A stretch of DNA of 64,000 bases from an uncultured Lachnospiraceae bacterium (GTDB taxonomy: Bacteria > Bacillota > Clostridia > Lachnospirales > Lachnospiraceae). The notes beneath the pieces were generated by a model. The model searched no databases, was not told where the DNA came from, and saw nothing but the letters and a program-made list of their open reading frames with translations. How positions within the stretch are numbered: the first letter of the stretch is position 1; each line of letters begins with the position of its first letter. The position numbers and the translations under genes are program-made. Below are positions 4,779 through 54,255 of the stretch, piece after piece. Location: positions 1-64,000 of the forward strand of contig CADBCZ010000006.1 of NCBI GenBank assembly GCA_902793335.1, written 5' to 3'.

Positions 4779-4798
4779 AATTGTGAAGGATTATGCAT

Positions 4799-6169
4799 AT
4801 GTCAAAGAAATTAATCAAGCAAATGATTCGTAATATATATATGCTTTTGAGCCTGGCAATGGCATTTTGCTCGGCAATCTGGCTCTGGTACTGGAATGTC
4901 GGAGTAGGCTGGGACAAAGGCTATTTTGGCGGACGAACTCTTGTGACGGTAGGGGTCTTGTATTCTATCGTTTACTTTTCGTTTTCCAAGATGTATAAGG
5001 CACACAAAATCGGTGCTTATCATCTCATGGAGTTGTCATTTTCTCAGATGCTTTCTTACGGAATCAGCGATGCTGTACTTTTGGTCGCTGCTTTCTTCTG
5101 GTTCCATAATTTCCAAAGAATAGATATAAGGTTGTTTATACTGGCGTTTTTTATCCAGAATTTAATTATAACGCTGGTAACATTTTTCATGAATCGTCTC
5201 CATGCCAAATTTGACGAGCCGCACAGGGTAGCTATAATCTACGGTGACGAGTCTTATCCGCTTTTGGTGGAGAAAATGAAAGCTTATCCCTATAGATATC
5301 GTATAATGGGTTGTATTGATCAGAATTCGAACAGAAGGGATATGTATAAAATACTCAACAGATGTCACGATATCTATCTATACAAGGTGGATGTTGCGCT
5401 ACGCGAGGAGATTCTGTTATTCTGCGAGTACAGACATATAGATATTCATTTTTCCATAGGTATTGAGGATATAAATGTGCGCGGGTGCGAGGTCTCGACC
5501 TTCTTTGATACCCCGTTTTTGAGAAACCGCAGAACGGATGTTGTATGGTATTATCCGATTGTGAAGAGACTTGCGGACATTTTTCTGTCGTTGCTTGCCC
5601 TTATCATTTCTGCACCATTTATGATAATTACTGCGATTGCAATAAAGTTAGAGGATGGCGGTAGCGTATTATATCTTCAGAAAAGATTGACCAGGGATAA
5701 TAAGTCATTTTATATATACAAGTTCAGGAGTATGCGTGAGAATTCCGAAAAAAGCGCACGACTTGCCGAAGCGGGCGACAAGAGAATCACAAAGGTTGGC
5801 CGTGTGATAAGAAGATTCCGTATCGATGAGATACCGCAGTTATTTAATATCTTAAAGGGTGATATGACTATAGTGGGTCCAAGACCTGAACGCCCTGAGA
5901 TTGCGAAAGAATATGAGGAGATTCTGCCTGAGTTTGCAATGCGACTTAAAGTAAAAGCAGGCCTAACAGGCTATGCCCAGGTGTACGGAAAATATAACAC
6001 TACACCTGAGGATAAGCTTAAGTTAGACCTGATATATATATCGCAAAGATCGTTGATGATGGATCTTCAGATAATGTTCTATACCGTTAAGATACTGTTC
6101 CTTCCGGAAAGTACCGAGGGGGTCAGTGCCGACCAGTTGACCGCAGTCAAAAATCCTGGCGGTAAATAG
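4799..6169 (+). CDS. exopolysaccharide polyprenyl-phosphate sugar-1-phosphate transferase
   Basis: 457 residues from ATG 4799; GAAGGA at 4785-4790 fits this start better than ATG 4793, two codons upstream. The N-terminal half has four to five hydrophobic segments and a Rossmann-like region (VAIIYGDE, ~145-153). One more membrane helix (~255-280) precedes the catalytic bacterial sugar transferase domain: YIYKFRSM, FRIDEIPQLFNILKGDM, VGPRPERPE and GLTGYAQVYGKYN. Enzymes of this type move a sugar-1-phosphate from a nucleotide sugar to undecaprenyl phosphate, starting exopolysaccharide or glycan repeat synthesis. The sugar cannot be read from sequence. Confidence 0.88.
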   Translation: MSKKLIKQMIRNIYMLLSLAMAFCSAIWLWYWNVGVGWDKGYFGGRTLVTVGVLYSIVYFSFSKMYKAHKIGAYHLMELSFSQMLSYGISDAVLLVAAFFWFHNFQRIDIRLFILAFFIQNLIITLVTFFMNRLHAKFDEPHRVAIIYGDESYPLLVEKMKAYPYRYRIMGCIDQNSNRRDMYKILNRCHDIYLYKVDVALREEILLFCEYRHIDIHFSIGIEDINVRGCEVSTFFDTPFLRNRRTDVVWYYPIVKRLADIFLSLLALIISAPFMIITAIAIKLEDGGSVLYLQKRLTRDNKSFYIYKFRSMRENSEKSARLAEAGDKRITKVGRVIRRFRIDEIPQLFNILKGDMTIVGPRPERPEIAKEYEEILPEFAMRLKVKAGLTGYAQVYGKYNTTPEDKLKLDLIYISQRSLMMDLQIMFYTVKILFLPESTEGVSADQLTAVKNPGGK

Positions 6170-6174
6170 AGTTT

Positions 6175-6564
6175 TCAGTGATCGTAATCATCATCATAAT
6201 CGTCATCAAGGTCATGATGATCGCTCATGAATTCTCTGTTGGTAACTCTCTTGGTATCACGCTGCTTCTCAACCAGTTCTGAAAGCTGTTCTTTAACTTC
6301 CTTAGGGTTCTTGATGCTTAAGATGTCAAAATCCTTCATGCTTTTGTCTGCAGAGCAGCAATGGATTGTTCCCACACCGAATAATCTCTGTCCGAAACTG
6401 CGGCTTAAAGACACATCCATAATTCTGTATAATCTTACTTCATCTTCCTTCTTATTGAGAAAACCCTGTTCGATAAAAAGTCTTTCTTCCGTCATGCTGT
6501 ATTTTGTAAAAGAAAGTGGTAACCCGAATAAAGTTCTCTTTCTGTCGCTCCATAAATATTCCAT
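6175..6564 (-). CDS. bacterial PH-domain (YdbS-like) small protein
   Basis: 129 residues from the ATG at 6562-6564, chosen because GGAGG sits 5 bp before it; the open frame extends 12 codons further up. The pattern YSMTEERLFIEQGFLNKKEDEVRLYRI followed by DVSLSRSFGQRLFGVGTI matches the core of bacterial PH-like domains, where a strand-turn-strand unit with a polar face is followed by the F/R-rich segment. A lysine/glutamate helix and an Asp/His tail (DDDYDDDYDH) follow. There is no membrane helix. It converges on the sugar transferase with 5 bp between stops. Confidence 0.6.
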   Translation of the reverse strand: MEYLWSDRKRTLFGLPLSFTKYSMTEERLFIEQGFLNKKEDEVRLYRIMDVSLSRSFGQRLFGVGTIHCCSADKSMKDFDILSIKNPKEVKEQLSELVEKQRDTKRVTNREFMSDHHDLDDDYDDDYDH

Positions 6565-6675
6565 AATATCCTCCATTCTCTGTTTCGATAATATATGCAT
6601 TCATAATACTCTAAATTGAATACAAATTCAACTATAAGCAGCTAAATTGTTCAGCATTTATCCGCATTTTTAACA

Positions 6676-6704
6676 TTGCTTATTTACATAAATATCTGTA
6701 TAAT
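6676..6704 (+). promoter_or_regulatory. promoter of the secreted amidase gene
   Basis: TTGCTT at 6676-6681 and TATAAT at 6699-6704 with a 17-bp spacer; the gene starts at 6762 after AAGGAGATAAATA. Confidence 0.6.
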
Positions 6705-6761
6705 GTAGGATGTGCGTTTTTGTATGATAATAGTAGGAAAAAGAAAACAAGGAGATAAATA

Positions 6762-8360
6762 ATGTTAAGAAAACATATTAACTGTAAAACCGTCGTTTTG
6801 TCTTCCTGTATGCTGATAGGTGCTTTGTTATCATTTAATAAAGCCACAGTATCGGCGACAGCGACTACACAGGAACAGACTCAGACTACCACGACAACTA
6901 CGACTGCTGCAACAACGACAGTGCAGACTGTAAACGGAATGTTAAGCACCGGTTTATCACCCGCGCAGTCGAAGGTTTTAGTTATCGATCCGGGACATTG
7001 TAAGTCCCATCCGGGGGCAGCCTCACATGGTCTTAAGGAAGAGGATGTTGTTCTTGATATTTCACAGGCGGCATATGATGAATTGTTAGAGTATGGAGAC
7101 ATTACGGTCTACATGACTAGAGAGGACGGAGGCTGTTGTACACATCTTGGATGTGGAAGCAGTTGCCTGTATGCAAGAAGTAATTATGCGCAGAAGTTAG
7201 ACGCGGATTTTCTTTTGAGTGTCCATATAAATGCGGGCTATTCAAGCGGCGCGAATGCTTTGGTTGCATACAATTCAGGTTATCACGACAGTGTAAGAGT
7301 TGAGACACAGGCATTTGGAAGGATTGCACTTCGTGAGCTTAAGAAATTAGGAATTGTCAACAAGGGATTTCTTTTAAGAAAATCAGGTGCCGGAAACAGA
7401 TATCCTAACGGAAAACTTTGCGATTATTATGCGCTTGTAAGACGCGGTGTGGTTGATCAGATTCCATCAGTCATAATGGAACATGGTTATGTGACCAGCT
7501 CTTCTGACTGTAAGAAGTTTTTTAAGACCAAGGCTAAGAGAGATAAGGTCGGAGTGGCAGATGCAAATGCTATAATAAGTTATTTCGGTCTTTCCAAAAA
7601 GACAATTGAGGGTGAAATGGTTACGGAGAACGGCTCTACATTCTTCAAGGATACAACCGGTAACAAGGTCTGCGGATGGGTTAAACATGATGGAGACTGG
7701 TATTACTTTGATGAAACTACAGGACATATGAAAACCGGATTTTTGGAGCAGGGCGATAATACTTATTATTTAAGTCCCGGAACAGGTGAGATGGCGGTAG
7801 GTGCATTTAAGACTGAGGGCAATGAGTATATGGCAAAAGGTAATGGAACCTTGGTCAAGGGTGCGATGCATACAGACGGAGTGGGAACTTATCTCTATGA
7901 TGTTGCAGGTAGAAAACTTGGTAATGGTTTCCATACTCTTAATAACGATACTTATTATGTAGTGAGTAGTAAAAAGGTTGCCCGCGGACTTACCAAGATT
8001 AGCGGCAAGTATTACGGTTTTGATTCCCAGAGCGGAAAAATGTTATATGGTGTCCAGACTTTGGGAGGAAAGAATTATTACTTTGATCCACAGACAGGTG
8101 TTGCCGCAAGAAATCAGATGATTCAGGTTGAAGATGAGACATACTATTATGGCAAAAAGGCGGCAGAGCAGACCGGATGGGTTAAATATAAAGGTGCAAA
8201 GTATTATTTTGACAAGTATTCGGCAGAGATGATAAAGGGCTGGAAGAAGATTAAGGGCAAGTATTACTACTTTGATGAAGAGACCGGCAAGATGGCAAAG
8301 AGTACCTGGATAGGCAACTATTATGTCAATAAGAAAGGTGTCAGAACCAAGAAGAGATAA
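6762..8360 (+). CDS. secreted N-acetylmuramoyl-L-alanine amidase (Amidase_3) with cell-wall-binding repeats
   Basis: 532 residues. A signal peptide covers ~1-33, followed by a Thr/Gln-rich linker. The amidase domain (~70-275) shows LVIDPGHCKSHPGA, the Glu of LKEEDVVLD, LSVHINAG and IMEHGYVT, supplying the two zinc histidines and catalytic glutamates of the AmiC/CwlD group, which cleaves the MurNAc-L-Ala bond. From ~290 on, about eight repeats of the type GWVKHDGDWYYFDETTG resemble choline/glucan-binding repeats, rich in Tyr, Trp and Gly. The protein should act in the wall and anchor non-covalently to wall polymers. It has its own promoter. Confidence 0.9.
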   Translation: MLRKHINCKTVVLSSCMLIGALLSFNKATVSATATTQEQTQTTTTTTTAATTTVQTVNGMLSTGLSPAQSKVLVIDPGHCKSHPGAASHGLKEEDVVLDISQAAYDELLEYGDITVYMTREDGGCCTHLGCGSSCLYARSNYAQKLDADFLLSVHINAGYSSGANALVAYNSGYHDSVRVETQAFGRIALRELKKLGIVNKGFLLRKSGAGNRYPNGKLCDYYALVRRGVVDQIPSVIMEHGYVTSSSDCKKFFKTKAKRDKVGVADANAIISYFGLSKKTIEGEMVTENGSTFFKDTTGNKVCGWVKHDGDWYYFDETTGHMKTGFLEQGDNTYYLSPGTGEMAVGAFKTEGNEYMAKGNGTLVKGAMHTDGVGTYLYDVAGRKLGNGFHTLNNDTYYVVSSKKVARGLTKISGKYYGFDSQSGKMLYGVQTLGGKNYYFDPQTGVAARNQMIQVEDETYYYGKKAAEQTGWVKYKGAKYYFDKYSAEMIKGWKKIKGKYYYFDEETGKMAKSTWIGNYYVNKKGVRTKKR

Positions 8361-8427
8361 TGGTGTTTAGAGGGTTAAATGAAGGTTCCAGAGGGTTGCC
8401 GGATTTGTTGCAAACGCAAATAAAAAC

Positions 8428-8456
8428 TTGTAAAATGACCGTTTTTTTGGTAAAAT
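8428..8456 (+). promoter_or_regulatory. promoter of glgP
   Basis: TTGTAA at 8428-8433 and TAAAAT at 8451-8456, spaced 17 bp; AAGGAGG precedes the ATG at 8497. Confidence 0.55.
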
Positions 8457-8496
8457 AGACGATGGATATTGTATATTTCAAGGAGGGTTTATTAAG

Positions 8497-10968
8497 ATGG
8501 CTAGAAAGTTGGACTTTGACAAAGAAGCATTTAAGAAGGAAGTTGTAAACAACGTTAAGTCTCTTTATCGTAGAACTATTGATGATGCATCACAGCAGCA
8601 GGTTTTTCAGGCTGTTTGTTATGCAATCAAGGATACTATAATTGATCAGTGGATTGCAACTCACAAAGAGTATGAGAAGAAGAATGCTAAGACAGTATAT
8701 TATCTGTCTATGGAGTTCTTGATGGGTAGAGCTCTTGGTAATAACCTTATCAACTTGACATTTTATGATGAGGTTAAGGAAGCTCTTGATGAGTTGGGAT
8801 TTGATATTAATGTAATAGAGGATCAGGAGCCTGATGCAGCGCTTGGTAACGGTGGTTTGGGACGTCTTGCAGCCTGCTTCCTGGATTCGTTATCAACTCT
8901 TGGTTATCCTGCTTACGGATGCGGTATCAGATATCGCTATGGTATGTTCCGTCAGGAGATAAAAGACGGTTATCAGATTGAGAAACCGGATGATTGGTTA
9001 AGAGACGGCAATCCGTTCGAAATTCGCCGTAATGAGTATGCGTGTGAGGTTAAGTTCGGCGGTCATGTAAGAGTTGATTACAAGGATGGAAAGAATCAAT
9101 TCGTTCAGGAGGGATATTCTTCTATCCGTGCCGTACCGTATGACCTTCCGGTAATTGGATATGGTAATAACGTTGTTAACACATTAAGAATCTGGGATGC
9201 AGAGGCAATCTCTGATTTCAACCTTGATTCATTTGATAAAGGAGAGTACCAGAAGGCGGTAGAACAGCAGAACCTTGCAAGAACTATTGTTGAGGTGCTT
9301 TATCCTAACGATAATCACTATGCAGGTAAAGAGCTTAGATTGAAGCAGCAGTATTTCTTCATCTCAGCATCTATCCAGACTGCACTTAAGAAATTTAAAG
9401 AGAATAATTCAGATCTTCACGATATTCCTAATAAGCTCACATTCCAGCTTAACGATACTCATCCTACCGTTACTGTTGCAGAGCTTATGAGAATTTTGGT
9501 TGACGAAGAAGGTCTTAACTGGGATGAGGCTTGGGATATCACTTGTCGTACATGTGCATATACCAACCATACCATCATGGCAGAGGCTTTGGAGAAATGG
9601 CCAATCGAGTTGTTCTCAAGACTTCTTCCTCGTGTATATCAGATTATTGAAGAGATTGACAGAAGATATGTCAACATGATACGTGAGAAGTATCCTAACA
9701 ATCCTGAGAAGGTTAAGAACATGGCTATCCTCTATGATGGTCAGGTTAAGATGGCACACCTTGCTATTGCTGGTTCATATTCAGTTAACGGTGTTGCTGC
9801 CCTTCATACAGAGATACTTAAGAAACGTGAGCTTAAGGACTTCTATGAGATGAGACCTGAGCAGTTCAATAACAAGACTAACGGTATTACCCAGAGACGT
9901 TTCTTGTTACATGGTAACCCGCTCTTAGCTGAATGGGTAACTTCTAAGATTGGTGATGAGTGGATCACAGATCTTCCTCACATTGCTAAGCTTAAAGTAT
10001 ATGTTGATGATGAGAAGTGTCAGCAGGAATTCATGAATATCAAGTATCAGAATAAGGTACGTCTTGCAGCTTACATCAAAGAGCATAATGGTATTGAGGT
10101 AGACCCTCGTTCAATCTTTGATGTTCAGGTTAAACGTCTTCATGAGTATAAGAGACAGCTTATGAACATCCTTCATGTAATGCATCTCTATACTGAGATT
10201 AAGGAGCATCCGGAGAAGGATATCGTACCTCGTACATTTATCTTTGGTGCGAAGGCGGCAGCGGGATATAAGAGAGCTAAGCTTACAATTAAGCTTATTA
10301 ACTCGGTTGCTGATGTTATCAACAATGATGAATCTATCAAAGGTAAGATCAAGGTTGTATTCATCGAGAACTACCGTGTATCTAACGCCGAGCTTATAAT
10401 TGCAGCTGCTGATGTATCAGAACAGATTTCAACAGCTTCACGTGAGGCTTCAGGAACAGGTAACATGAAGTTCATGTTAAATGGTGCTCCGACAATCGGA
10501 ACAATGGATGGTGCTAACGTTGAGATCGTTGAAGAGGTTGGTGCTGAGAATGCATTTATCTTCGGTCTTTCGGCAGATGAGGTTATGGCTTATGAGCGTG
10601 ATCACAGCTACAAGCCTAGAGATATATACAACAGCAATGCCAATGTTCGCCGTGTGCTTACACAGCTTATCAACGGTACCTATAACGAGGATACAGAGCT
10701 GTTTAGAGACCTGTATGATTCGCTCGTTGAGGGAGATGTATACTTTACATTGAAGGATTTCGATTCTTATTGTGAGGCTCATGACAAGATTGATGAGGCA
10801 TACAGAGACGAGAAGAGATGGGCTAAGATGGCTATGCTTAATACAGCATGTGCAGGTAAGTTCTCTTCTGACCGTACTATCGAGCAGTATGCTAAAGAAA
10901 TCTGGAACCTTGAGAAAGTAACTGTTAAGATGCCTAAGGCACCTGCGAAGAAGAAAACTTCTAAGTGA
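8497..10968 (+). CDS. glgP: glycogen/alpha-glucan phosphorylase
   Basis: 823 residues, normal length for the GT35 family. It shows YYLSMEFLMGRALGNNL and ALGNGGLGRLAACFLDS near the N-terminus, KRLHEYKRQLMNI in the phosphate-binding region, and EASGTGNMKFMLNGA, whose Lys forms the Schiff base with pyridoxal phosphate. The enzyme releases glucose-1-phosphate from glycogen or maltodextrin in the cytosol. This fits with the maltodextrin uptake locus at 27.8-36.9 kb. It is monocistronic, with its own promoter and terminator. Confidence 0.97.
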   Translation: MARKLDFDKEAFKKEVVNNVKSLYRRTIDDASQQQVFQAVCYAIKDTIIDQWIATHKEYEKKNAKTVYYLSMEFLMGRALGNNLINLTFYDEVKEALDELGFDINVIEDQEPDAALGNGGLGRLAACFLDSLSTLGYPAYGCGIRYRYGMFRQEIKDGYQIEKPDDWLRDGNPFEIRRNEYACEVKFGGHVRVDYKDGKNQFVQEGYSSIRAVPYDLPVIGYGNNVVNTLRIWDAEAISDFNLDSFDKGEYQKAVEQQNLARTIVEVLYPNDNHYAGKELRLKQQYFFISASIQTALKKFKENNSDLHDIPNKLTFQLNDTHPTVTVAELMRILVDEEGLNWDEAWDITCRTCAYTNHTIMAEALEKWPIELFSRLLPRVYQIIEEIDRRYVNMIREKYPNNPEKVKNMAILYDGQVKMAHLAIAGSYSVNGVAALHTEILKKRELKDFYEMRPEQFNNKTNGITQRRFLLHGNPLLAEWVTSKIGDEWITDLPHIAKLKVYVDDEKCQQEFMNIKYQNKVRLAAYIKEHNGIEVDPRSIFDVQVKRLHEYKRQLMNILHVMHLYTEIKEHPEKDIVPRTFIFGAKAAAGYKRAKLTIKLINSVADVINNDESIKGKIKVVFIENYRVSNAELIIAAADVSEQISTASREASGTGNMKFMLNGAPTIGTMDGANVEIVEEVGAENAFIFGLSADEVMAYERDHSYKPRDIYNSNANVRRVLTQLINGTYNEDTELFRDLYDSLVEGDVYFTLKDFDSYCEAHDKIDEAYRDEKRWAKMAMLNTACAGKFSSDRTIEQYAKEIWNLEKVTVKMPKAPAKKKTSK

Positions 10969-11005
10969 TATTAACTTATATAAGAGTAGATATTGTTTAA
11001 TTTAA

Positions 11006-11040
11006 TTAGGAACCGCCACAAAAAGCGGTTCCTAATCTTT
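11006..11040 (+). terminator. rho-independent terminator of glgP
   Basis: TTAGGAACCGC at 11006-11016 pairs with GCGGTTCCTAA at 11025-11035 around an 8-nt loop; a short T-rich tail follows. Confidence 0.7.
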
Positions 11041-11128
11041 AGATTTTAGATGATGCAACAACTTATGGCTCTTTCTCAAAAATAAAAAATATTAAAAGTA
11101 ATGTCAAATGACAAGGAGGACTAACAAA

Positions 11129-11779
11129 GTGAAAAGTATCAAAAAATTAACAGTAATGCTCAGTATGATCATGGTGGCATGTTTTGTAACCGGATGTGCA
11201 CTTGGAAGCTTCGATGCCAGCGGTTATGTAAGATCATGTCTTGACGCTAACTTACATGGTGAGTTCGAAGAGTATGCTAAGATCACCAGATCAGAAGTAT
11301 CAGAGGTAGAGAGTCTCTACAACAGTTTCTTGGATTCAGATCTTGAGTTCTTAAGCGCTTACAAGGCTGACGATGCGAAAAAACAGCAGTTCCGTGAGCT
11401 TTTCATCAAACTTTACAAGAACACCAAGTATGAAGTAGGTGAGGCTACTAAGGGAGATGACGGATCATACTCAGTACCTGTTAAGGTATATAAGATGGAT
11501 GTATTCAAGAATGTTATGGCTAACATTGAGGCTGATATGACTAAATGGGCTGAGGACCAGGTTGCAGCAGGAACTACACCTTCAACAGACGACATCTACG
11601 CATATGTATTGGATTATATGTATGATGCAATGGCTAAAGAGGTCGATAATCCTCAGTATGAAGAGCCTGTAGATAGTTCTATCAAGGTTGCTAAGAATTC
11701 AGAAGGTGCATATGGTGTTGACCAGACAGAGCTTCAGAATCTTCTTGAGTCTATGATTGATATCGAGAATGCACAGTAA
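11129..11779 (+). CDS. putative lipoprotein
   Basis: 216 residues from GTG 11129, which follows AAGGAGG at 9 bp; the ATG seven codons earlier would put that ribosome site inside the gene. The N-terminus has a basic start, a hydrophobic stretch and the lipobox FVTGC, so it should be a lipoprotein facing outward. The mature part is acidic, mostly helical and resembles the loose DUF5105-type family of Firmicutes lipoproteins; that assignment is weak. It lies between glgP and acpP, with a terminator after it. Confidence 0.7.
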   Translation: MKSIKKLTVMLSMIMVACFVTGCALGSFDASGYVRSCLDANLHGEFEEYAKITRSEVSEVESLYNSFLDSDLEFLSAYKADDAKKQQFRELFIKLYKNTKYEVGEATKGDDGSYSVPVKVYKMDVFKNVMANIEADMTKWAEDQVAAGTTPSTDDIYAYVLDYMYDAMAKEVDNPQYEEPVDSSIKVAKNSEGAYGVDQTELQNLLESMIDIENAQ

Positions 11780-11833
11780 TAATTATACATAAATGCATGT
11801 GTAATACATTTGCATTGAACTGTATTTTCTTAA

Positions 11834-42178: not shown

Positions 42179-42251
42179 GGGCCGCTAGCTCATTTGGTAG
42201 AGCACCTGACTCTTAATCAGGGTGTGCGGGGTTCGAGCCCCCGGCGGCCCA
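42179..42251 (+). tRNA. tRNA-Lys (anticodon CTT)
   Basis: A complete cloverleaf: acceptor GGGCCGC/GCGGCCC, D stem GCTC/GAGC, anticodon stem CCTGA/TCAGG with loop CTCTTAA, T stem CGGGG/CCCCG. CCA is not encoded. The Wadjet-like genes start 135 bp downstream, a common site for inserted DNA. Confidence 0.95.
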
Positions 42252-42255
42252 CTGA

Positions 42256-42300
42256 AGGAATCGATTTGATGACAATAAGCATTGGGTCGGTTCTTTTTTT
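42256..42300 (+). terminator. terminator of tRNA-Lys
   Basis: AGGAATCGA pairs with TCGGTTCTT (two G-T pairs), followed by a run of T. Confidence 0.65.
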
Positions 42301-42386
42301 GTCTCTAATAACCCTTTACATTTTATACTATAACCATTAAAATTAGTAGTTGATTGCTAAATTCTAGAAGTGACCGGGGAAAAAGA

Positions 42387-43922
42387 ATGGCCGAAAGATA
42401 TATAATGATTCACGATATTCTAAGCGAGCATCGTGATCGAATGTTTAATCTGAAGAAATATTATCCTTTTTTTGTGTTGTCTGAGACGACATTTAACCAG
42501 TATAAGGACGGAAAGTATAGCGAGTTGGACATGGGATATATAACCATGGCAACTCTGCGTTTTCTTATACAGGAGAACAATTTCAGAGAGAGAGAAGTTA
42601 CCTATGAAGAGTATGAAGAGTTTCTGCTTGAACTCCTCCATAGGGATTTTTTGCTGTCTGAAACTGAGGAAGAGGAGAAAGAACTTGCCGGTTATATATT
42701 TGATAAGATTAAAAATGACGGAAAGGCATTTACTTTTTCTTATTATGATCCGGAACTGAAAAAGAAGATGAATGCCAGAGTCAAGCTTATTGATAGTAGG
42801 ATTGTTGACGGTGTGGTGCTTTATCAGGTTACGACGGATGGTATTGAATTCTATCTTGATACGAAAGAGATTAAGGACGAGAGTAATATATCGGTACAGC
42901 AGCTTCTTCTTGAGAAAATGATAGAGTCGGAGAACTTTGCAGGCGGAATAGAGGTAGTTAAGAGAATCAATAATGAGGTTAGCAAATTGGCGCTTCAAAA
43001 GAAGGAAGTACTTGAGCTTCTAAGCTATGACATAATAGCGGGTGCCAAGGCGAGTGAGGATTATATGGCGACTGTGGCAAAGTGGTTTGATGATGAATCA
43101 AAGCTTTTTGAAAAGAACAGAGCACTTATCGATAAAGCATTTTCCAAGGCGAATTCTGAGGGTGAGAGTATCGACGGAGGTAACGCGGTTCTCTTGGAAA
43201 TTCACAGATTAGATACCGAGCTTAAGAGAACTATTATAAGACATGGTGAGCTTATAAGAGAGACCATAGAGCTTCAGAATATTGCAGATGAAATGATAGG
43301 AAGGGCGAAGCTTAGAAAGTTAAGACCTGTATTTGACTTCCGTAATGCGCTTAATACGTGTATGAAAGCGGATGCTCCGGAAAGACTTTCGATAATGGTT
43401 GGACCGCTGCTTTTGCCGAAGCTTACTAAGAGTTTCAATGCAGAATGTATTGACAGAATGCTTGAGAGTAAAGCAGATAATAACGATTACGGAGAAAAGG
43501 TCGAGAAGAAAGAGCTTGATCCTGATTTTAAATATGAGGATGAGATAGAAGAGGGAAGAATTAACGAGAATTTCACGAGGTTATTTGAAGAGCTTTTAGA
43601 GCAGCTCTGGAAGCATGGAAAGACAACATTGTCTCTTCTTATGTCTATATATGAGATTAAGTTTGGAAAAGATATCTACAACAACGGAGATGTATATTCG
43701 TTCCTGGTTCATTTGGCTCAGAAGAACAGGTATGACATGAGCTTGATGTCCGGCAAGCAGGATACGTTCTTAGAAGGAATAGTTATGGACAATATGAGTA
43801 CACCTAAGCGTGAGCAGTATGGAAAGCTGGTGTTTGAGATATCATTTAATGAAGAAGAGGTACTTAAGTTTGGCGCAAATGAAGAGTACAGCATAACCGA
43901 TATGAGCTTTGAAATCGTGTGA
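42387..43922 (+). CDS. JetA-like kleisin subunit of a Wadjet-type SMC complex
   Basis: 511 residues from ATG 42387 after GGGGAAA; a TTG 11 codons earlier is weaker. The N-terminal ~120 residues look like a winged-helix region (HDILSEHRDRMFNLKKYYPF) and the middle is a long helical region (residues ~180-330). I see no enzyme motif. Size, order and neighbours fit JetA of Wadjet systems or MksF/MukF-type kleisins, which bridge the two heads of the SMC subunit. The identification rests mainly on the two following genes. I think it closest to type III Wadjet, but cannot confirm this. Confidence 0.7.
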   Translation: MAERYIMIHDILSEHRDRMFNLKKYYPFFVLSETTFNQYKDGKYSELDMGYITMATLRFLIQENNFREREVTYEEYEEFLLELLHRDFLLSETEEEEKELAGYIFDKIKNDGKAFTFSYYDPELKKKMNARVKLIDSRIVDGVVLYQVTTDGIEFYLDTKEIKDESNISVQQLLLEKMIESENFAGGIEVVKRINNEVSKLALQKKEVLELLSYDIIAGAKASEDYMATVAKWFDDESKLFEKNRALIDKAFSKANSEGESIDGGNAVLLEIHRLDTELKRTIIRHGELIRETIELQNIADEMIGRAKLRKLRPVFDFRNALNTCMKADAPERLSIMVGPLLLPKLTKSFNAECIDRMLESKADNNDYGEKVEKKELDPDFKYEDEIEEGRINENFTRLFEELLEQLWKHGKTTLSLLMSIYEIKFGKDIYNNGDVYSFLVHLAQKNRYDMSLMSGKQDTFLEGIVMDNMSTPKREQYGKLVFEISFNEEEVLKFGANEEYSITDMSFEIV

Positions 43923-43957
43923 AAATGAGCGTCTGACAGGAAGGATAAGATATAGAT

Positions 43958-44668
43958 ATGGAAATGAAGAATCTGGAAAAAGCGATGGATATATATGCGC
44001 GCCTGGTGACGGGAGAAGAGATTGGAAGAAGCGGAGCTAACGCCTCCTTATATGAGGATTATTACAGCAATGCAGAGGTTTATGAGATTTTGGGCGTGTT
44101 GCTCAAAAAACTAAACCTTCATATATATGAATATAAGGAAAGTCTTTTTTTAACGCCCGGAGACGGTAACAGGGTTTTCGGTTATACCAACGAGGAGCTT
44201 AAGCGTGCCATGGGTCTTCGATATAACAAAGAGCTTTATCTTGCATTTTTTATAATATATGAAATAATGCTTTCGTTTTATTCGGATTCTGCTTCTTATC
44301 AGTTCAAGGAGTACATCAGGATTGAGAATATAGTTGAGGATGTTACCAAGTCATTGTCGGTGTTTACAAAGGATATTGCCATTTATGACATGGAACAGGA
44401 GAAAGAGGAAAGTTTCAAGACAGTGGCGCTTTTCTGGGATGAGCTTCCGGCAAGTACTTCTGAAAATCAGGAGGATTTAAGAGCGTCGAGAGCGTCAAAG
44501 TCGAGCTTTGTGAAACTTGTTTTTAACTTTATGATAAATGAGAACTTATTTGTTGAAGTGAGCGGACGTTATTATCCGACCATGCGCGTTAAGGCGTTGA
44601 TTGAGAATTATTTTGAGGATTATCGCGGAGAGATATACGATGCACTTTCTAATAAAAAGGAAGATTAG
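43958..44668 (+). CDS. JetB-like (DUF6063) subunit of a Wadjet-type SMC complex
   Basis: 236 residues. The sequence YSNAEVYEILGVLLKKLNLH, then LFLTPGDGNRVFGYTNEELK and LYLAFFIIYEIMLSFYSD matches my memory of DUF6063, the small winged-helix (kite-type) subunit found between a JetA-like and an SMC-like gene. It should bind the JetA-like kleisin. The TAG stop is the first base triplet of the inverted element B. Confidence 0.7.
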   Translation: MEMKNLEKAMDIYARLVTGEEIGRSGANASLYEDYYSNAEVYEILGVLLKKLNLHIYEYKESLFLTPGDGNRVFGYTNEELKRAMGLRYNKELYLAFFIIYEIMLSFYSDSASYQFKEYIRIENIVEDVTKSLSVFTKDIAIYDMEQEKEESFKTVALFWDELPASTSENQEDLRASRASKSSFVKLVFNFMINENLFVEVSGRYYPTMRVKALIENYFEDYRGEIYDALSNKKED

Positions 44669-44754
44669 GTAATTGCGAAACTCTTTTTCTTCTTGTTTTT
44701 TGTGCATAATATACACAACTCAATACTCAAATTTCGTAGTTTCGCGATTACCTA
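44666..44754. repeat. structured element B between the jetB-like and jetC-like genes
   Basis: TAGGTAATTGCGAAACT at 44666-44682 is repeated inverted as AGTTTCGCGATTACCTA at 44738-44754 with one G-T pair in RNA. The left arm starts at the stop codon of the JetB-like gene and the right arm ends one base before the AGGGAGGA-type ribosome site of the JetC-like gene. A TTGTG/CACAA hairpin is nested inside. The arms share GCGAAACT with elements A and C. Confidence 0.7.
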
Positions 44755-44767
44755 GGGAGGAATGAAT

Positions 44768-47700
44768 ATGCCGAATATTAACAGAATTCGTGTCAACAAT
44801 GTTAAATATAATTTTGGAACACAGGGATATGATGATTTTTCTATGCGTATGTATGGAAAGAACACCCTTTATGATCTTGCCAACGGTGGCGGTAAGAGTG
44901 TACTTATGCTGCTTTTGCTGCAGAATCTGATACCTAATTGTACCCTGGATGAGAAACAGCCTATTGAGAAGCTGTTCAGAACGGGTGGTGGAAACACAAC
45001 CATTCATTCCCTTGTTGAGTGGAAGCTTGATGATAAGGATATCAAGGAAGGGATGCGCTACATGACCACAGGCTTCTGCGCCAGAAAGGCAAAGGAGGGG
45101 AACGGTGACGCAGATGATGCGACCTTATCTCTTCCTGAGGAAGTATTAAACAGCGCGGTTTCAGGTGCGGACGGTGAAAAAATATCGGGAAAATCTGTGG
45201 TTAGGGACAATGCGTCCATCGAGTATTTTAACTACTGTATTTTCTATCGTGATTATAATGAAAATGATATCATTAATCTTCCCCTTCAGAATAATAAGGA
45301 GAGGATTACTTATAGTGGACTTAAGAACTATCTTAAGGACCTTTCGAGACGTAATTTAAACATTAAGGTTTATGTGTTTGAGAGAAAAGGTGAATACCAG
45401 CGTTTTATCAGCAAATACGGTCTTTTTGAGAGTCAGTGGGAGATAATCCGAGGAATCAATAAGACAGAGGGACATGTCCGTACATATTTTGAGAACCGTT
45501 ATAAGACTACAAGAAAAGTGGTAGAGGATCTTCTTATAGAAGAGATAATTGAGAAGGCATTTCTTGTAAAGACGGAGCAGGATGATGTAAATGAAGATAT
45601 GGCAAAAACTCTTCTCGACATCAAGGATAAATTAGTCGAGCTTTCCAAAAAGAAAAAAGAGATATCCAATTTCGATAAGGAAACGGAGCTCATGCATTTA
45701 CTTGAGGGAAGAGTATCGTCTTTCCTTACCCTTTATGAGGAGAAGGACAGACTTACAGGTACTTTGTCGGATATATATGCGACAGGGGAACATTTATGTG
45801 AAAAAGGCGAAGAGGAGATAGAGGAGAGAAAGAAAAAGAAGGAAGAACTTGAGGAAAAGTTAAATCTCCATCGCAGAAAAACAGAGGAATTAAAGATTAT
45901 AAAGGACCAGCATGAGTTAAAGACAACCTCAGATGATCTCTTAACTTCCCAGGCGCATGTGACTAAGGCTGATGATGAGCTTTCGGCAGCAAAGAGAGAG
46001 CTTGAGCTTAAAGAGAGTATCAATGATTACATCCAATATATGAATGACAGCGCGGCTGTCTTAGAGAATCAGGCGGTTATAGATGCCTCTAGGGAGGATA
46101 ATTCCGACATTTTGCAAAAGCTTCATGTATATGCATTTACCAAGAAGAAGCTTGATGACGAGAAGCTTAAAGATTTAAGGGAGCAGTTAGAGGTTAAGAA
46201 GAACCTTCTGGCAAAAGAAAGTAAAAGGCTTGAACAGTTGTCTCAGGTGAGAGAAGAGGGGGCTACTGCGCTTGCGGTTGCGAAGAGCCACAGGGAGAGA
46301 TTTCTTGCTGAATATGAGAAGTACATGGAAGAAATCCGCAAGGTAAGATCTAATATTTCACTGCTTGTTCTTTCCGATATCGGTCAGCTGATGGAGGAAC
46401 TTGAACGCGAGGGCAAGGATATGGAGGAACGCGAGGCCGAATTAAATGCTTCCATGTCTTTGGATGTTGATAAGATAAGTGAACTTAGACAGAAGATATT
46501 TGAATCTGATATAGAACGTGAACAGTTGACAAAAGAGGCTGAAGAAGCGGATGAAAAGCTTTCGGTATACCTCGAAAACAAGGACAGACTTAAGAAGATG
46601 CTCCAGATATATGATGTGAAGGAGCCTGATCGCTTATATGATACGGTTAAGGAAAGAGCCTTTAAGCACACGATAACTCTTGCTGAACTTGAAAAGACTG
46701 TTGCCCGTGTGAAGAAGCATTTGTCAGGTGTGCGAGAGGGAAGGATTATCGAAGAACCGGGTGCGGTGACTAAGGTTAAGGATTACATGGAAAGTCGTCA
46801 TGGCATATTCCTTCTTTCAGGAGTGGATTACCTCTCTGCACTCCCTGTAGCAAATCGCGAGGACTTGCTTGGACGTTTCCCTATGCTTCCTTACGGAGTT
46901 GTGACTGATGACTTTGAGATTATTGAGGATGATATTAAGATTCATGAGTTAGATCTTAAAAATCAGATGGTGCCTGTGTTTGACAGGAAGAAGCTGGAAT
47001 CTCCTTATATTCCGGAGCAGACAGAAGGGATGCTTTTGCTTGCAAAGGAACACGGGGTGTTTATTAAAGAGGAAGCGCAGCTTGCAGAGGCACAGCGCCT
47101 GGAAAATGAACTTGCAGAACTTGAGGAAGAGTATGCTTCTCTAAAGGAGCTTGAAAAGACTTATGATGAGGATCTCATTTACATCTCTGCTCTTCATGGG
47201 GTTTCTTTGGAAAATGCCGAGGGCAGGGTAAGAGAGACTAAAGAAAAACTTATCGAGCATGAGCGCTTAGGTGAGAAGTATGAGAATCAGTTAAAGGCGA
47301 CAGAAGCTCATATGGAGCAGATGAAAAATGAAGCTGCGACTATAAAAGAAAAACTGGCAAGCAATAATCGGGATCAAATTAAGGTTGCCGGAATTGTTTC
47401 TATGAGCAGGCAGGCAGATGAGGCTAAGAAGCAGTTAGATTTCTATGAGGCTGAGGTTAAGAGGCTCTCAAACGATACCGAGCAGGCGGCTTCTGAGTAT
47501 GAGAATGTAAGGCTTAAAGAGGGTGAGCTCAAAGCCTTGGTTGAGTATATGGAGCAGCAGATTAGCGATACACTTAAAGAGTGGGAGGAGCTTTATAAGG
47601 AATATTACGTTGATGAGAATTTGACTGCGATTAATATTTCGGAGGAACAGCTTCGTGCGGAGTTCCTGGCTGCATGTGCACTTGATAAAGAAGCAAATAT

Positions 47701-49330
47701 AATATTAGAGGATAAGCAGAAACTCATAGAGACTCTTAAGGTGAGTATGGAGAGAAGCTTAAAACTGATAGCCAGAAGGAATATATCTGTAGAAGAACTT
47801 GAGGAGTTGAGGAGTAAAGGAGAACTTCATCCTGTGTCTGAAGATTACTTGAGCCAGTTGTCAGGATATGTTTCGCAGATATCGGTAAGATGTGACCAGT
47901 TAAGAGATGAGACGAAGAAGAAGGAAAAGGCTGTCACTAGGATAGAGGGAAGAATTGAGCAGGCGCTTTCGGCACTTTCGGAGAGATTTGGCGTGGAAGC
48001 AACAAATAAACTTGGTGAGATTCTGGATAAAATGAAGTCTGGTTTAGACAGCTCTTCATATGAAAATGATTCTTCAAATCCTGCTCTTTACAGAAAAGAA
48101 GAGGTCGTTCAGGCTTTGGCTGAAAGTGACAGGATACTTAAGGAGATATCTGCTGAAATCAAGAAGTATAATGAGGAGTATCAGCGATATGTCAAGAATC
48201 ACAGCGTGATAGTTGATCTTTATAAGGATGTTAAGAGAATAGTTCAGTCGGAAGAGATTGATATAAGCGGTGGAAATGTTCTTATGGGCGAGCAGAAGGA
48301 TATCAGAGAAACCTTTGAGGAAAGCCTTCTGGCATATGATAAGAGCAACAAATCCTTGTCGAGAGCTAAGCAGGAGCTGTTGAACTTTAAGACACAGACT
48401 GCCAATACATTTTTTGCTATGGGAGCATTTGAACTTTCCAACTCTCTTAAGGAGGATGTGGAGATTCCGGATACCTATGAGGATGCAAAGAATCTGCTTG
48501 GTAATATACGTGAAATGATATCTTATATAGGCCTTGAAAAGGAAAGAGTACTTCAGGGTATCGAGGATATGGAGACTATCAAGAATAATTTTGAGAATCA
48601 GTGTATCGAGAGATGCAAGGATGTAAGGATGGAGCTTGATAAGCTGCCGAAACTCTCCCGTATCCAGTTGGACGGCGAGATGATACAGATGGTAAATCTC
48701 ACAATCCCTTATGTTAAGGACGAGTTTATAAAGCAGCGAATGTCTGATTATATTGATGAGGTGGTTGGCGGTGCTGACCGCTTTGACGATAACAATGACC
48801 GTATCAAATACATCAAGAATATGCTGTTACTTAAGAAGCTGTTTGGTGTCATGGTCACAGATATGAATGCTATCAAATTGAAGCTTTACAAGAGAGAGCG
48901 AATCAAGGACCAGAGTAGATATCTAAGATATGAGGAAGCTGTTGGAAGTACAGGACAGTCCCAGGGTATATATATTCAGTTCCTTGTTTCCATCATCAAT
49001 TATATTTCGGGGATGTATGCGCCGGAGGCTGAAGCTTCCGAGCTTAAGAAGGTAATCTTTATTGATAATCCTTTCGGTGCTGCTAAGGATATATATATTT
49101 GGGAACCTATTTTCGCGCTGCTTGCAACCAACAATGTACAGCTTATCGTACCTGCCCGTGGTGCGACACCTGCGATAACCAATCGTTTTGATGTCAACTA
49201 CATTTTGGGACAGCAGCTTGTCGGCGGAAGACAGCAGACGGTAGTGGTAGACTACAGAAGTCAGGTTGAGACGAGTGAGATGGAGTACGAGAATCTCGAG
49301 TATAGTCAGGCAACGTTTGACTTCCTATAA
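44768..49330 (+). CDS. JetC-like SMC ATPase of a Wadjet-type complex
   Basis: 1520 residues from ATG 44768 (GGAGG 7 bp upstream; ATG 44762 is too close). The N-terminal head has Walker A NGGGKSVLMLLLL (~40-44). Long coiled coils run through ~300-630 and ~780-1270 and enclose a hinge-like globular region (~650-770, KDYMESRHGIFLLSGVDYL). The C-terminal head has the signature STGQSQGIYIQFL and Walker B KKVIFIDNPFG, where the usual Glu after Asp is Asn. With the two genes before it this forms an SMC complex of the MukBEF/Wadjet group, which extrudes DNA loops. No JetD gene follows. Confidence 0.8.
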   Translation: MPNINRIRVNNVKYNFGTQGYDDFSMRMYGKNTLYDLANGGGKSVLMLLLLQNLIPNCTLDEKQPIEKLFRTGGGNTTIHSLVEWKLDDKDIKEGMRYMTTGFCARKAKEGNGDADDATLSLPEEVLNSAVSGADGEKISGKSVVRDNASIEYFNYCIFYRDYNENDIINLPLQNNKERITYSGLKNYLKDLSRRNLNIKVYVFERKGEYQRFISKYGLFESQWEIIRGINKTEGHVRTYFENRYKTTRKVVEDLLIEEIIEKAFLVKTEQDDVNEDMAKTLLDIKDKLVELSKKKKEISNFDKETELMHLLEGRVSSFLTLYEEKDRLTGTLSDIYATGEHLCEKGEEEIEERKKKKEELEEKLNLHRRKTEELKIIKDQHELKTTSDDLLTSQAHVTKADDELSAAKRELELKESINDYIQYMNDSAAVLENQAVIDASREDNSDILQKLHVYAFTKKKLDDEKLKDLREQLEVKKNLLAKESKRLEQLSQVREEGATALAVAKSHRERFLAEYEKYMEEIRKVRSNISLLVLSDIGQLMEELEREGKDMEEREAELNASMSLDVDKISELRQKIFESDIEREQLTKEAEEADEKLSVYLENKDRLKKMLQIYDVKEPDRLYDTVKERAFKHTITLAELEKTVARVKKHLSGVREGRIIEEPGAVTKVKDYMESRHGIFLLSGVDYLSALPVANREDLLGRFPMLPYGVVTDDFEIIEDDIKIHELDLKNQMVPVFDRKKLESPYIPEQTEGMLLLAKEHGVFIKEEAQLAEAQRLENELAELEEEYASLKELEKTYDEDLIYISALHGVSLENAEGRVRETKEKLIEHERLGEKYENQLKATEAHMEQMKNEAATIKEKLASNNRDQIKVAGIVSMSRQADEAKKQLDFYEAEVKRLSNDTEQAASEYENVRLKEGELKALVEYMEQQISDTLKEWEELYKEYYVDENLTAINISEEQLRAEFLAACALDKEANIILEDKQKLIETLKVSMERSLKLIARRNISVEELEELRSKGELHPVSEDYLSQLSGYVSQISVRCDQLRDETKKKEKAVTRIEGRIEQALSALSERFGVEATNKLGEILDKMKSGLDSSSYENDSSNPALYRKEEVVQALAESDRILKEISAEIKKYNEEYQRYVKNHSVIVDLYKDVKRIVQSEEIDISGGNVLMGEQKDIRETFEESLLAYDKSNKSLSRAKQELLNFKTQTANTFFAMGAFELSNSLKEDVEIPDTYEDAKNLLGNIREMISYIGLEKERVLQGIEDMETIKNNFENQCIERCKDVRMELDKLPKLSRIQLDGEMIQMVNLTIPYVKDEFIKQRMSDYIDEVVGGADRFDDNNDRIKYIKNMLLLKKLFGVMVTDMNAIKLKLYKRERIKDQSRYLRYEEAVGSTGQSQGIYIQFLVSIINYISGMYAPEAEASELKKVIFIDNPFGAAKDIYIWEPIFALLATNNVQLIVPARGATPAITNRFDVNYILGQQLVGGRQQTVVVDYRSQVETSEMEYENLEYSQATFDFL

Positions 49331-49345
49331 AATTCGGGTTTGTAC

Positions 49346-49523
49346 GCGAAACTCTTTAAATTTTTTCATGTATAGCAGTTTGTTTTTATGTTTCTTATAA
49401 CGCGTGCGCTTGGATAAAAAGTTTTATTTCTATGACTGAAAAACTTTTTACCATTCGCTTCGCGTTAATAATATATTAATCAGACAAACTGCTATACGAG
49501 ATATACTTTATCGAGAGTTTCGC
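49346..49523. repeat. structured element C downstream of the jetC-like gene
   Basis: 178 bp bounded by GCGAAACTCT and AGAGTTTCGC. Nested inside are TATAGCAGTTTGT/ACAAACTGCTATA and AAAAAGTTTT/AAAACTTTTT arms. Its right end reads, on the other strand, GCGAAACTCTCGATAAAG..., identical to the left end of element A over 23 bases. It stands where the fourth Wadjet gene would be expected. Confidence 0.7.
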
Positions 49524-49596: not shown

Positions 49597-49902
49597 TCAA
49601 TAATATGAAACCAATTGATCAATAGGAATACGAGTGGCGCTGTGTCTGTCCGGAGCGGCCTGCTCATCTTTTGCATAGCCTATTGTCGATATGTTAATCG
49701 GTTCAAGATTATCCGGCAAATCGAATTCTTTTTTGATTACGTCGGGCTTGAAATAACATACCCATACTGAACCGAGTCCCAGTTCTGTTGCCTGTAACAT
49801 CATATGGTCTGTTAAGATTGTCGCATCTATATCTGCAGACTGCTTGTTGTCAATAAATGCATAATTATCTATGGCAAATATTTTAGAGGCTGACAATGAC
49901 AA
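49597..49902 (-). pseudogene. N-terminally truncated nitroreductase-family remnant
   Basis: The ~101 visible residues match the C-terminal half of a nitroreductase: IDATILTDHMMLQATELGLG, VWVCYFKPDVIKKEFDLPDN and ISTIGYAKDE. Full members have 170-200 residues with an FMN-binding N-terminus that is absent; the sequence before it is the promoter region of the divergent epimerase gene. No good start codon or ribosome site is present. A decayed gene is the simplest reading. Confidence 0.75.
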
Positions 49903-52350: not shown

Positions 52351-54255
52351 ATGGCAGAACATATTTTACTTATGATATACCCTATATTATTGATGGTTTT
52401 AACATTTTTCGGTGCAAAGCGCTCAAAGAAGGGAGAGCTTGCATCGGATTTTATGAAGCCTGCTCAGACTAAGCTTATTCAGGGTGCTGCCTGTATGGCT
52501 GTTGTGATACACCACCTCACTCAACATATTTCAAAATACGGTTATGCCAACAAGGGACCTATCGGTATTTTTAATTACATAGGAATCCTGTTTACGGCAA
52601 TCTTCTTTTTTGTATCTGGTTATGGACTTATCACGAGTGTATATAATAAGGAAGGTTATCTCGATACATTTCTGACCAAAAGACTTCCGACCGTACTTAT
52701 TCCCTTTTGTCTGATAAATGTAATGGGCGTTTTGTTACTTGCTGTTGGTCTCGGTGTCAGATACACAGTTTCTGAGGCTTTAAGTGATATATTCGGATTT
52801 ACGCTCATTAATAGCAACGGATGGTTTATAATAGAAATAGTAATAATATATATCATCTTTTTTGCGGCATTTACCTTATTTAAGAATAAGGATGTGGCGT
52901 TATTGGTTGTGAGTGTTGCTGTGTTACTTCTTATCATATACAGTTACAATCAGGGACATGATGCAAACGGTGTAAAGGCAAGCTGGTTTAAAGGTGAATG
53001 GTGGTTTAACTCTACGATAACATTTATATTCGGTATGGTGTTTGCAAGATTTAAGGATGCTATATCAGGCTTTTGCAACAGACATTACAGAATTATCCTT
53101 GTCATAACCGCGATACTTTTTGTTTTGACGGTTGCGGCATCGATTTATACGGTTATACGTTATGGCTATTATATAGAAGGATATGTAGGTCCGGTAAAAT
53201 ACGGTAAACTGCTCACTTTAATTTCCCAGATGGCGGCATGTATTGTATCAACCATGTTGGTGATTATTTTGAATATGCGCATAACCTTAGGCAATAAAGC
53301 GCTTTCATTTATAAGTAAAATCAGCGTTGAGTTGTTTTTGATACATGGCTATTTTTTGGAAAAGATATTCGGCAGTGTGAGAATGGGAGACATGACCAGA
53401 TTTGCTGTTGTAATCATAAGCAGTGTAGCTTTTACGGTAGCGGTTTCGCCGGTTATAAGATGGATCGTTAATAAGGTTACAGCGCTGCTTAGCAGGAAAA
53501 AGGTATATAACGATACCCTTGAGGGAGCTATTGCCAAAAAGAACAGAGAAAAGATGGTCAAAACCTGGAAGATGTTGGGCTCTGTTGCCGCTCTTCTTTG
53601 CTGTATAGTGTTTTTCTCATTGACCATAGGAAAGCGTTTGATATACATGATTCAGTTTTCGACGGAGACTGATGCAATCGCTGATGCTAAAGTTGGCGAT
53701 GTGGTTAAATGGGGACATTTTGATACGGACAGACGCCCCGGAAGAGAGCGCCTTGAATGGATAGTGATAAAGAAAGACGGAAATGAGATATGTCTCGTAA
53801 CCAAACAGGGAATAGATGGATGTTGGTATAATCAAAAACACGAGGCGGTTTCGTGGGATAATTCGGATATAAGGCAGTTGCTTAACAGCGATGAGTATTA
53901 TGATATGTTCAGTAACTTCGAGATGGATGTGATAATTGAGAAAAACGGCGATCTTGTGTCGCTGTTGACAACAGATGAGGCTATGGAAGCATTTAATGAT
54001 GATGCTGACAGAGAACTTGATATCACGGATGAGGCTGAACTTAAGGGAACTAATATCAATACCTTGAGTAAGGTGGATAAATGGGATATGAAGGGATATC
54101 GTTCTTCGTGGTGGTGGTTAAGAAGGCCGGGTAACGAAGCGGACGTATATGCACCGGTGGTTACCGTTAACGGAGAGGTGGCTGAACACGAGAAGGAAGT
54201 CAACAGAACAGGCGGAGCGATAAGACCTGTTATATGGATAGAACTTGAAAAATAG
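52351..54255 (+). CDS. membrane acyltransferase (type 3) fused to a DUF6273 domain
   Basis: 634 residues. About ten membrane helices (~1-390) form an acyltransferase_3 domain; the conserved His is in CMAVVIHHLTQHI and the motif FFFVSGYGLI follows. A further helix (~410-435) leads to an external C-terminal domain: KWGHFDTDRRPGRERLEW, WYNQKHEAVSWDNSDIRQLL and WWWLRRPGNEADV, the DUF6273 pattern. Acyltransferases of this kind move acetyl groups onto sugars outside the membrane. Between murT and gatD, with 19 and 51 bp gaps, it suggests a peptidoglycan or wall-glycan substrate (inference). Confidence 0.82.
   Translation: MAEHILLMIYPILLMVLTFFGAKRSKKGELASDFMKPAQTKLIQGAACMAVVIHHLTQHISKYGYANKGPIGIFNYIGILFTAIFFFVSGYGLITSVYNKEGYLDTFLTKRLPTVLIPFCLINVMGVLLLAVGLGVRYTVSEALSDIFGFTLINSNGWFIIEIVIIYIIFFAAFTLFKNKDVALLVVSVAVLLLIIYSYNQGHDANGVKASWFKGEWWFNSTITFIFGMVFARFKDAISGFCNRHYRIILVITAILFVLTVAASIYTVIRYGYYIEGYVGPVKYGKLLTLISQMAACIVSTMLVIILNMRITLGNKALSFISKISVELFLIHGYFLEKIFGSVRMGDMTRFAVVIISSVAFTVAVSPVIRWIVNKVTALLSRKKVYNDTLEGAIAKKNREKMVKTWKMLGSVAALLCCIVFFSLTIGKRLIYMIQFSTETDAIADAKVGDVVKWGHFDTDRRPGRERLEWIVIKKDGNEICLVTKQGIDGCWYNQKHEAVSWDNSDIRQLLNSDEYYDMFSNFEMDVIIEKNGDLVSLLTTDEAMEAFNDDADRELDITDEAELKGTNINTLSKVDKWDMKGYRSSWWWLRRPGNEADVYAPVVTVNGEVAEHEKEVNRTGGAIRPVIWIELEK

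Follow-up and report, generated by a model that had tools for sequence, protein, structure and literature searches.

A JetD-less locus and probable derivative of type III Wadjet, MksBEF-like in composition, in a clade of Lachnospiraceae-type bacteria

Type III Wadjet systems combine the nuclease JetD with three core proteins: the structural maintenance of chromosomes (SMC)-like ATPase JetC, the presumed kleisin JetA and the presumed KITE protein JetB. In JetD-bearing type III relatives the genes run in the order D-A-B-C, with jetD upstream of jetA. MksBEF of Pseudomonas aeruginosa and MukBEF likewise encode an SMC protein, a kleisin and a KITE protein, but no nuclease. MksBEF coexists with Smc-ScpAB in P. 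aeruginosa, and Smc-ScpAB, a chromosomal SMC-type complex, follows the phylogeny of its host. The review PMC10586767 suggests a Wadjet-like origin for MukBEF and MksBEF. Here we analyzed jetABC in a 64,000-nucleotide stretch of DNA from an uncultured Lachnospiraceae bacterium (the window, meaning the whole stretch), whose source assembly has 3.6 Mb in 157 contigs, with 98.5% completeness and 3.3% contamination. The locus is best read as a JetD-less derivative of type III Wadjet and is MksBEF-like in composition.

A sequence-only reading of the window had taken three co-directional genes for jetA, jetB (DUF6063) and jetC and proposed comparing them with the Wadjet models. This comparison gave strong type III matches for all three proteins, nearly full length in PADLOC, and Pfam agreed for JetB (Table 1). 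Neither JetA nor JetC had a Pfam match at E values up to 0.01, hence no SMC_N head domain was seen; this sets them apart from Smc-ScpAB. The window JetC carries the Walker A motif NGGGKS, the C-motif STGQ and the Walker B motif IFIDNPFG, and an ATG two codons upstream of its start would extend it to 1522 residues. The locus thus resembles type III Wadjet in the full-length profiles of its core proteins, in A-B-C order and in both Walker motifs (DNPF in Walker B). JetA3, JetB3 and JetC3 were all present and a linked JetD was not. The reading had also reported that no jetD is visible here, and this held: JetD3 profiles scored at most 6.1 bits on window frames, and six-frame, stop-to-stop pieces of 33001-58000 gave no match at E up to 10 among the matches listed. 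It had expected jetD after jetC. The gene is indeed absent there, but type III relatives carry it upstream of jetA, where the window has a short gap behind a tRNA gene with no remnant of jetD found in it.

Table 1. Coordinates of the window locus and its immediate surroundings, and of a second system on another contig of the same assembly
Feature	Position	Strand	Evidence or remark
tRNA-Lys(ctt)	42179-42252	+	directly upstream of jetA
tRNA-Lys to jetA gap, 134 bp	42253-42386		position of jetD in JetD-bearing type III relatives; too short for jetD
jetA, Wadjet type III JetA (presumed kleisin), 511 aa	42387-43922	+	PADLOC PDLC00560 JetA3, 711 bits, E 2e-214, residues 1-509; no Pfam match
jetB, DUF6063, Wadjet type III JetB (presumed KITE), 236 aa	43958-44668	+	PADLOC PDLC00571 JetB3, 328 bits, E 7e-99; Pfam PF19539, 156.7 bits
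jetC, SMC-like ATPase, Wadjet type III JetC (PADLOC: DUF3584 domain), 1520 aa	44768-49330	+	PADLOC PDLC00581 JetC3, 1821.8 bits, full length
Inverted repeat, exact 14-bp arms	49370-49497		downstream of jetC, before the nitroreductase remnant; not thought part of the system
Nitroreductase C-terminal remnant	49597-49902	-	PF00881, positions 114-167 of 167
Second type III Wadjet, order jetD-jetA-jetB-jetC	L020 (G000:C31:18000-34000), 3762-11798		PADLOC JetD3 PDLC00592, 306.7 bits; JetA3 PDLC00561; JetB3 PDLC00572; JetC3 PDLC00583

The absence of jetD is clade-wide and is no local deletion at the window. We searched a family sample of 250 genomes, including the window's own, with JetB3; the family was read as Lachnospiraceae from the contig titles of relatives. 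Two groups emerged, a clade group with 34 places in 34 genomes (174-370 bits) and another type III group with 20 places in 20 genomes (54-91 bits); three genomes, the window's own (G000), G151 and G174, held both. From this sample, the window and 33 further clade loci were compared in their neighborhoods with 20 JetD-bearing type III control loci. An additional 18 relatives were taken by contig title: 13 Lachnospiraceae, 2 Clostridium and one each of Clostridia, Clostridiales and Bacteroidales. The clade set comprised 52 loci, 51 of them distinct, because L015 is the same as L071 and both are counted in this total and in those of 44 and 48 below. None of the 52 had jetD, either by a first JetD profile, made from 18 of the family's JetD-bearing controls, or by a broader one from a 14-sequence alignment, and their six-frame, stop-to-stop pieces reached at most 10.8 bits against the JetD profiles. 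The first profile matched 19 of the 20 family controls (18 by construction), and the broader one gave the same result. In 19 of these 20 controls, one of which runs into a contig end, jetD adjoins jetA; in G176 the two share a contig, with jetD some 9.4 kb upstream. Among 20 loci of other Bacillota families, jetD was directly upstream of jetA in 19, L226 being cut by a contig end.

The same distribution was seen genome-wide. With the PADLOC JetD3 model PDLC00592, every one of the 20 control-group genomes gave a strong match, whereas the 31 genomes carrying the clade system alone gave no strong match. The other three of the 34 clade genomes, the window's included, have their JetD within a second, complete jetDABC system. 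The broader profile was run on 38 genomes, 35 clade genomes among them, and matched strongly only in G000, G151, G174, the JetD-bearing relative G252, and G389, whose match is not on the contig of its clade-like locus. Thirty-two of the 35 clade genomes were without a strong match to it, and 24 without any match at E up to 0.01.

A near relative outside the family still has the nuclease gene. An order-level scan of 12 loci found jetD in eight and did not find it in L185, L186, L190 and the clade member L191. Among the JetD-bearing ones, L184 (genome G252, another family of the same order) combines clade-type JetABC, with the STGQSQG motif, and an upstream jetD, whose divergent product scored 154.7 bits with PADLOC JetD3. 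In JetC trees from two analyses, with near-identical or surplus loci omitted, L184 grouped with the JetD-less clade inside a wider, almost wholly JetD-bearing set. Because jetD is still present in this near relative, the simplest reading is that the clade lost it, one or more times, and JetD was probably present in the ancestors before that. The sequence-only reading had left three options, that jetD was lost, that it is encoded elsewhere or that the complex works without cutting. Lineage-wide loss is the best supported of these, with 52 clade loci lacking jetD and L184 and nearly all other type III loci retaining it, while "elsewhere" is true solely through the second complete system of the window's genome.

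The JetD-less jetABC agrees with vertical inheritance. In 27 of the 34 clade genomes, the JetC and RpoB distances correlated at 0.855, a value reached in 0 of 2000 permutations, and 20 of 24 splits were common to both. The seven genomes left out had no retrieved RpoB locus or a broken one (G008, G025, G092, G129) or no full JetC (G002, G115, G197). JetA and RpoB correlated at 0.841 with 17 splits common, and JetC and JetA had 16 in common. The JetD-bearing systems of 20 genomes gave a JetC-RpoB correlation of 0.384 (53/2000 permutations) with 1 of 17 splits common, or 0.588 (2/2000) with 2 of 14 when the three most divergent were removed; this set is smaller and partly more divergent than the clade set, which may depress its figures somewhat. 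The surroundings differed in the same direction. Neighbor frames belonging to families common to at least three loci made up 83 of 314 frames and touched 22 of the 34 JetD-less loci, against 0 of 165 frames and 0 of 20 JetD-bearing loci. The commonest JetD-less setting was dnaX-ybaB-recR (recognized by eye) upstream of jetABC, in 12 loci; others had an fba-like or malic-enzyme-like neighbor, or the GH25, epimerase, MurT and presumed GatD surroundings of the window. Comparison of the tRNA-Lys locus in relatives, also proposed by the sequence-only reading, placed tRNA-Lys before jetA in 8 of the 10 close relatives scanned, so this is a shared context and no sign of recent integration in the window. 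The JetD-less clade thus did not display the features of defense-like mobility, scattered sites and a phylogeny unlike the host's, that marked the family's JetD-bearing systems.

The three genes are under purifying selection. The ratio of nonsynonymous to synonymous substitution rates (dN/dS) was 0.016-0.075 across jetA, jetB and jetC in 18 of the 26 pairwise comparisons, the synonymous rate (dS) lying beyond the correction limit in the other 8. The least saturated pair, L012/L013 (dS 0.83-1.07), gave the most reliable values, 0.026 for jetA, 0.016 for jetB and 0.036 for jetC. Walker A NGGGKS, Walker B DNPF and the C-motif STGQSQGI were all retained in the 48 full-length clade JetCs. The Asn of Walker B had been suspected as a lesion. 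This suspicion was not borne out, since DNPF is found in all 48 and in all 20 JetCs of the JetD-bearing family controls, and Asn occupies the site in every type III JetC examined save L185 and L186, where Ser takes its place. In type I JetC the position is occupied by Glu. The C-motif does differ between the clade and the JetD-bearing systems of the family, which have SGGE (18) or SGAE (2). Near relatives with JetD have STGQ, SEGQ or SSGQ, STGQ being that of L184 and L213, so that the motif marks a subgroup and is no consequence of JetD loss. In 7 of the 44 loci in which all three genes were measured (6 of them distinct), jetA and jetB were separated by 0.6 to 7.4 kb, and both were retained.

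We hold with moderate confidence that the clade has kept a type III Wadjet motor minus its nuclease as a vertically inherited, MksBEF-like SMC complex beside Smc-ScpAB. JetC as motor, JetA as kleisin and JetB as KITE would constitute the SMC core of a type III Wadjet system, from which jetD would have disappeared, through one or more losses, on the way to this clade of Lachnospiraceae-type bacteria. The JetD-less complex would then have been retained and passed on vertically alongside Smc-ScpAB. By analogy with the Wadjet family, for which the literature is mostly on type I, it would still dimerize and extrude DNA loops with ATP, without cutting. Its main substrate would be the host chromosome, where it would serve organization, segregation or repair in the manner of the JetD-free MksBEF of P. 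aeruginosa; this site of action is suggested by its descent, by its housekeeping surroundings and by the precedent of MksBEF. The likeness to MksBEF and MukBEF lies in the gene composition, with the kleisin and KITE roles in the clade taken from the Wadjet family assignment. Unlike them, the clade complex falls in the type III sequence group, and its absence of JetD is a separate one with a JetD-bearing relative extant. As with Smc-ScpAB, it is a chromosomal complex of the SMC type, and its phylogeny tracks that of the host. JetABC as a substitute for Smc-ScpAB was considered and rejected. The window's genome encodes a separate full-size SMC_N (Smc-type) protein and ScpA elsewhere, and ScpA was found in 34 of the 35 clade genomes, the exception being G092 (91% complete).

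Several observations weigh against this reading. Support for the grouping of L184 with the clade was mixed, 0.976 and 0.978 in one analysis and 0.595 in the other, and the JetD-less clade without L184 was supported at 0.895, 0.526 and 0.69. L096, a deep-branching clade member from the same family (genome G092), branched outside the JetD-bearing L184 in both trees; its contig begins inside jetB, and JetD was not found genome-wide. Taken with L185, the placement of L096 means that JetD was either lost more than once or regained in L184. In most pairs dS exceeded 1. In L006 and L008, whose sequence extends 4.7 and 9.3 kb upstream of jetB, no jetA was found, while jetB and jetC were present. The clade system occurs in 34 of the 250 family genomes, so the family can do without it. 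Finally, weak, unlinked matches were found to PDLC00592 in 12 of the 34 clade genomes, all 12 among the 31 with the clade system alone (at most 25.1 bits), and to the broader profile in 8 of 35 (15.6-24.7 bits; G025, G040, G042, G067, G126, G182, G197 and G227), and an unlinked, unrelated nuclease may serve as partner.

L185 (4901-11721) and L186 (4467-11296), from another family of the order, carry JetD-less JetABC with NGLGKT in Walker A and DSPF in Walker B. They may represent a further JetD-less line with another JetD loss and perhaps an altered ATPase function. This second line, and perhaps L096, suggests that a change to a nuclease-free complex occurred more than once. L186 has a short jetB and its jetC in two frames. 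L190 (7656-14355) contains a type III jetABC of another subgroup with JetD not found nearby; its relatives L192 and L195 have JetD.

JetABC could still be directed against plasmids without JetD, by trapping or compacting small circles, by blocking their segregation or by recruiting an unlinked nuclease. The intact ATPase motifs, the Wadjet subunits among its relatives and the weak, unlinked matches to the broader JetD profile in 8 of 35 clade genomes are compatible with such a role. We nevertheless regard it as unlikely, since the agreement with RpoB and the recurring housekeeping neighborhoods are unlike those of the JetD-bearing type III systems of the family. In addition, a PADLOC scan of eight flanking window proteins gave no family match at E up to 0.001, and the clade neighborhoods yielded no linked gene that is both conserved and confined to carriers as a candidate partner.

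The window's genome does contain a JetD. The sequence-only reading had called for a search of the whole genome and allowed that a clearly linked JetD would overturn its view. JetD3 was found, unlinked to the window locus and inside its own jetDABC operon on contig C31, which was also the one weak place in a Pfam JetD_C search of the assembly. No JetD was found in this genome outside that complete system. JetABC of the window might borrow this JetD in trans, which we consider highly improbable. A strong JetD3 match is lacking in 31 of 34 clade genomes (32 of 35 by the broader profile). The two JetCs also belong to different PADLOC subgroups, PDLC00581 and PDLC00583. The other C31 proteins likewise fall in subgroups different from those of the window, which indicates that the C31 set comes with a JetABC of its own and is more than just the partner that the window locus lacks. 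C31 may also be a misbinned contig in this assembly.

Slightly less probable still is a jetD missed through assembly gaps or through profiles blind to divergent JetD. In 13 of the 52 clade loci, one flank is indeed shorter than 1.2 kb, or jetA or jetC is incomplete in the stretch. In the other 39, however, flanks of at least 1.2 kb on both sides were occupied by other genes. As for the profiles, the first detected the divergent L184 JetD at 96 bits (the broader alignment includes this sequence) and one made without the 20 other-family loci found 19 of their JetDs. Of the 35 clade genomes, 30 have completeness of 90% or more together with contamination of 5% or less. The least probable explanation of all is that the locus is what remains of a decaying defense system, for the jetC split into two frames in 1 of the 18 named relatives (L017) and the jetA not found in L006 and L008 stand against low dN/dS in all three genes where computable, intact ATPase motifs and the retention of jetA and jetB when far apart.

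Among the loci with separated genes, a lipoprotein-like gene between jetA and jetB is common to four relatives (L007 695-1861, L011 8907-9956 and counterparts in L009 and L010). In L009 jetA lies 7.4 kb from jetB, so the jetA of L006 and L008 may be farther off or lost.

Many clade loci have a long protein downstream of jetC (L064 14296-17385, L065 1792-4764 and similar), with a TPR-like N-terminal part, an acidic middle and a C-terminal part that by eye looks like an AAA+ ATPase (KTGKT); one member had no Pfam match at E up to 1e-5. It was rejected as a dedicated partner and is rather a family-wide neighbor, since a search with it matched 66 of the 68 genomes covered, namely all 35 clade genomes and 31 of the 32 family non-carriers, but not G252, the genome of L184. 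Any match at E up to 1e-10 was counted, and profile coverage was partial in many genomes, the window's included. At non-carrier sites, dnaX-ybaB-recR stood beside the TPR gene with no jetABC between them in 1 of 15 (L257). The other 14 differed in their surroundings, so insertion and loss are indistinguishable at these sites.

The products flanking the window locus include a ThrS-like protein (by eye), a GH25 protein, the nitroreductase remnant, an aldose epimerase, MurT, an acyltransferase with DUF6273 and a GATase_3 protein, which we take to be GatD. The acyltransferase gene (52351-54255) lies between murT and gatD, which usually adjoin. No other copy of the inverted-repeat arm was found within the window at up to 1 mismatch.

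PDB sequence searches gave no match for JetC or JetA and none meaningful for a JetB profile; the best PADLOC matches of JetC were the JetC3 models. The AlphaFold2 models of JetB and JetA were of low confidence, with predicted local distance difference test (pLDDT) values of 50 and 53. Fold matches of the JetA model were mostly generic helical hairpins over one helical stretch, with some MukEF/MukBEF chains among the weak ones. For type I JetB, PMC10586767 reports an IFDR motif in the N-terminal contact for JetD. This motif was not recognizable in the type III JetB alignment. A search of a plasmid collection with JetA gave no match.

A search of the open-licence literature found no description of a JetD-less type III Wadjet lineage. 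With the chances for and against about equal, a plasmid-cutting type III Wadjet that lost its nuclease may here have turned into an additional SMC complex of the chromosome. This would parallel, independently, the origin proposed for MukBEF and MksBEF, and a JetD-bearing relative of the L184 type is still extant. The question is directly testable, because the JetD-less complex can be compared with its JetD-bearing near relative and with the seemingly mobile JetD-bearing systems of one family. If the reading of a retained, nuclease-free motor is true, the conversion of an SMC motor from defense to housekeeping could be tested step by step. Counts of defense systems made from JetC or JetABC matches alone would score this vertically inherited, JetD-less complex as plasmid defense.

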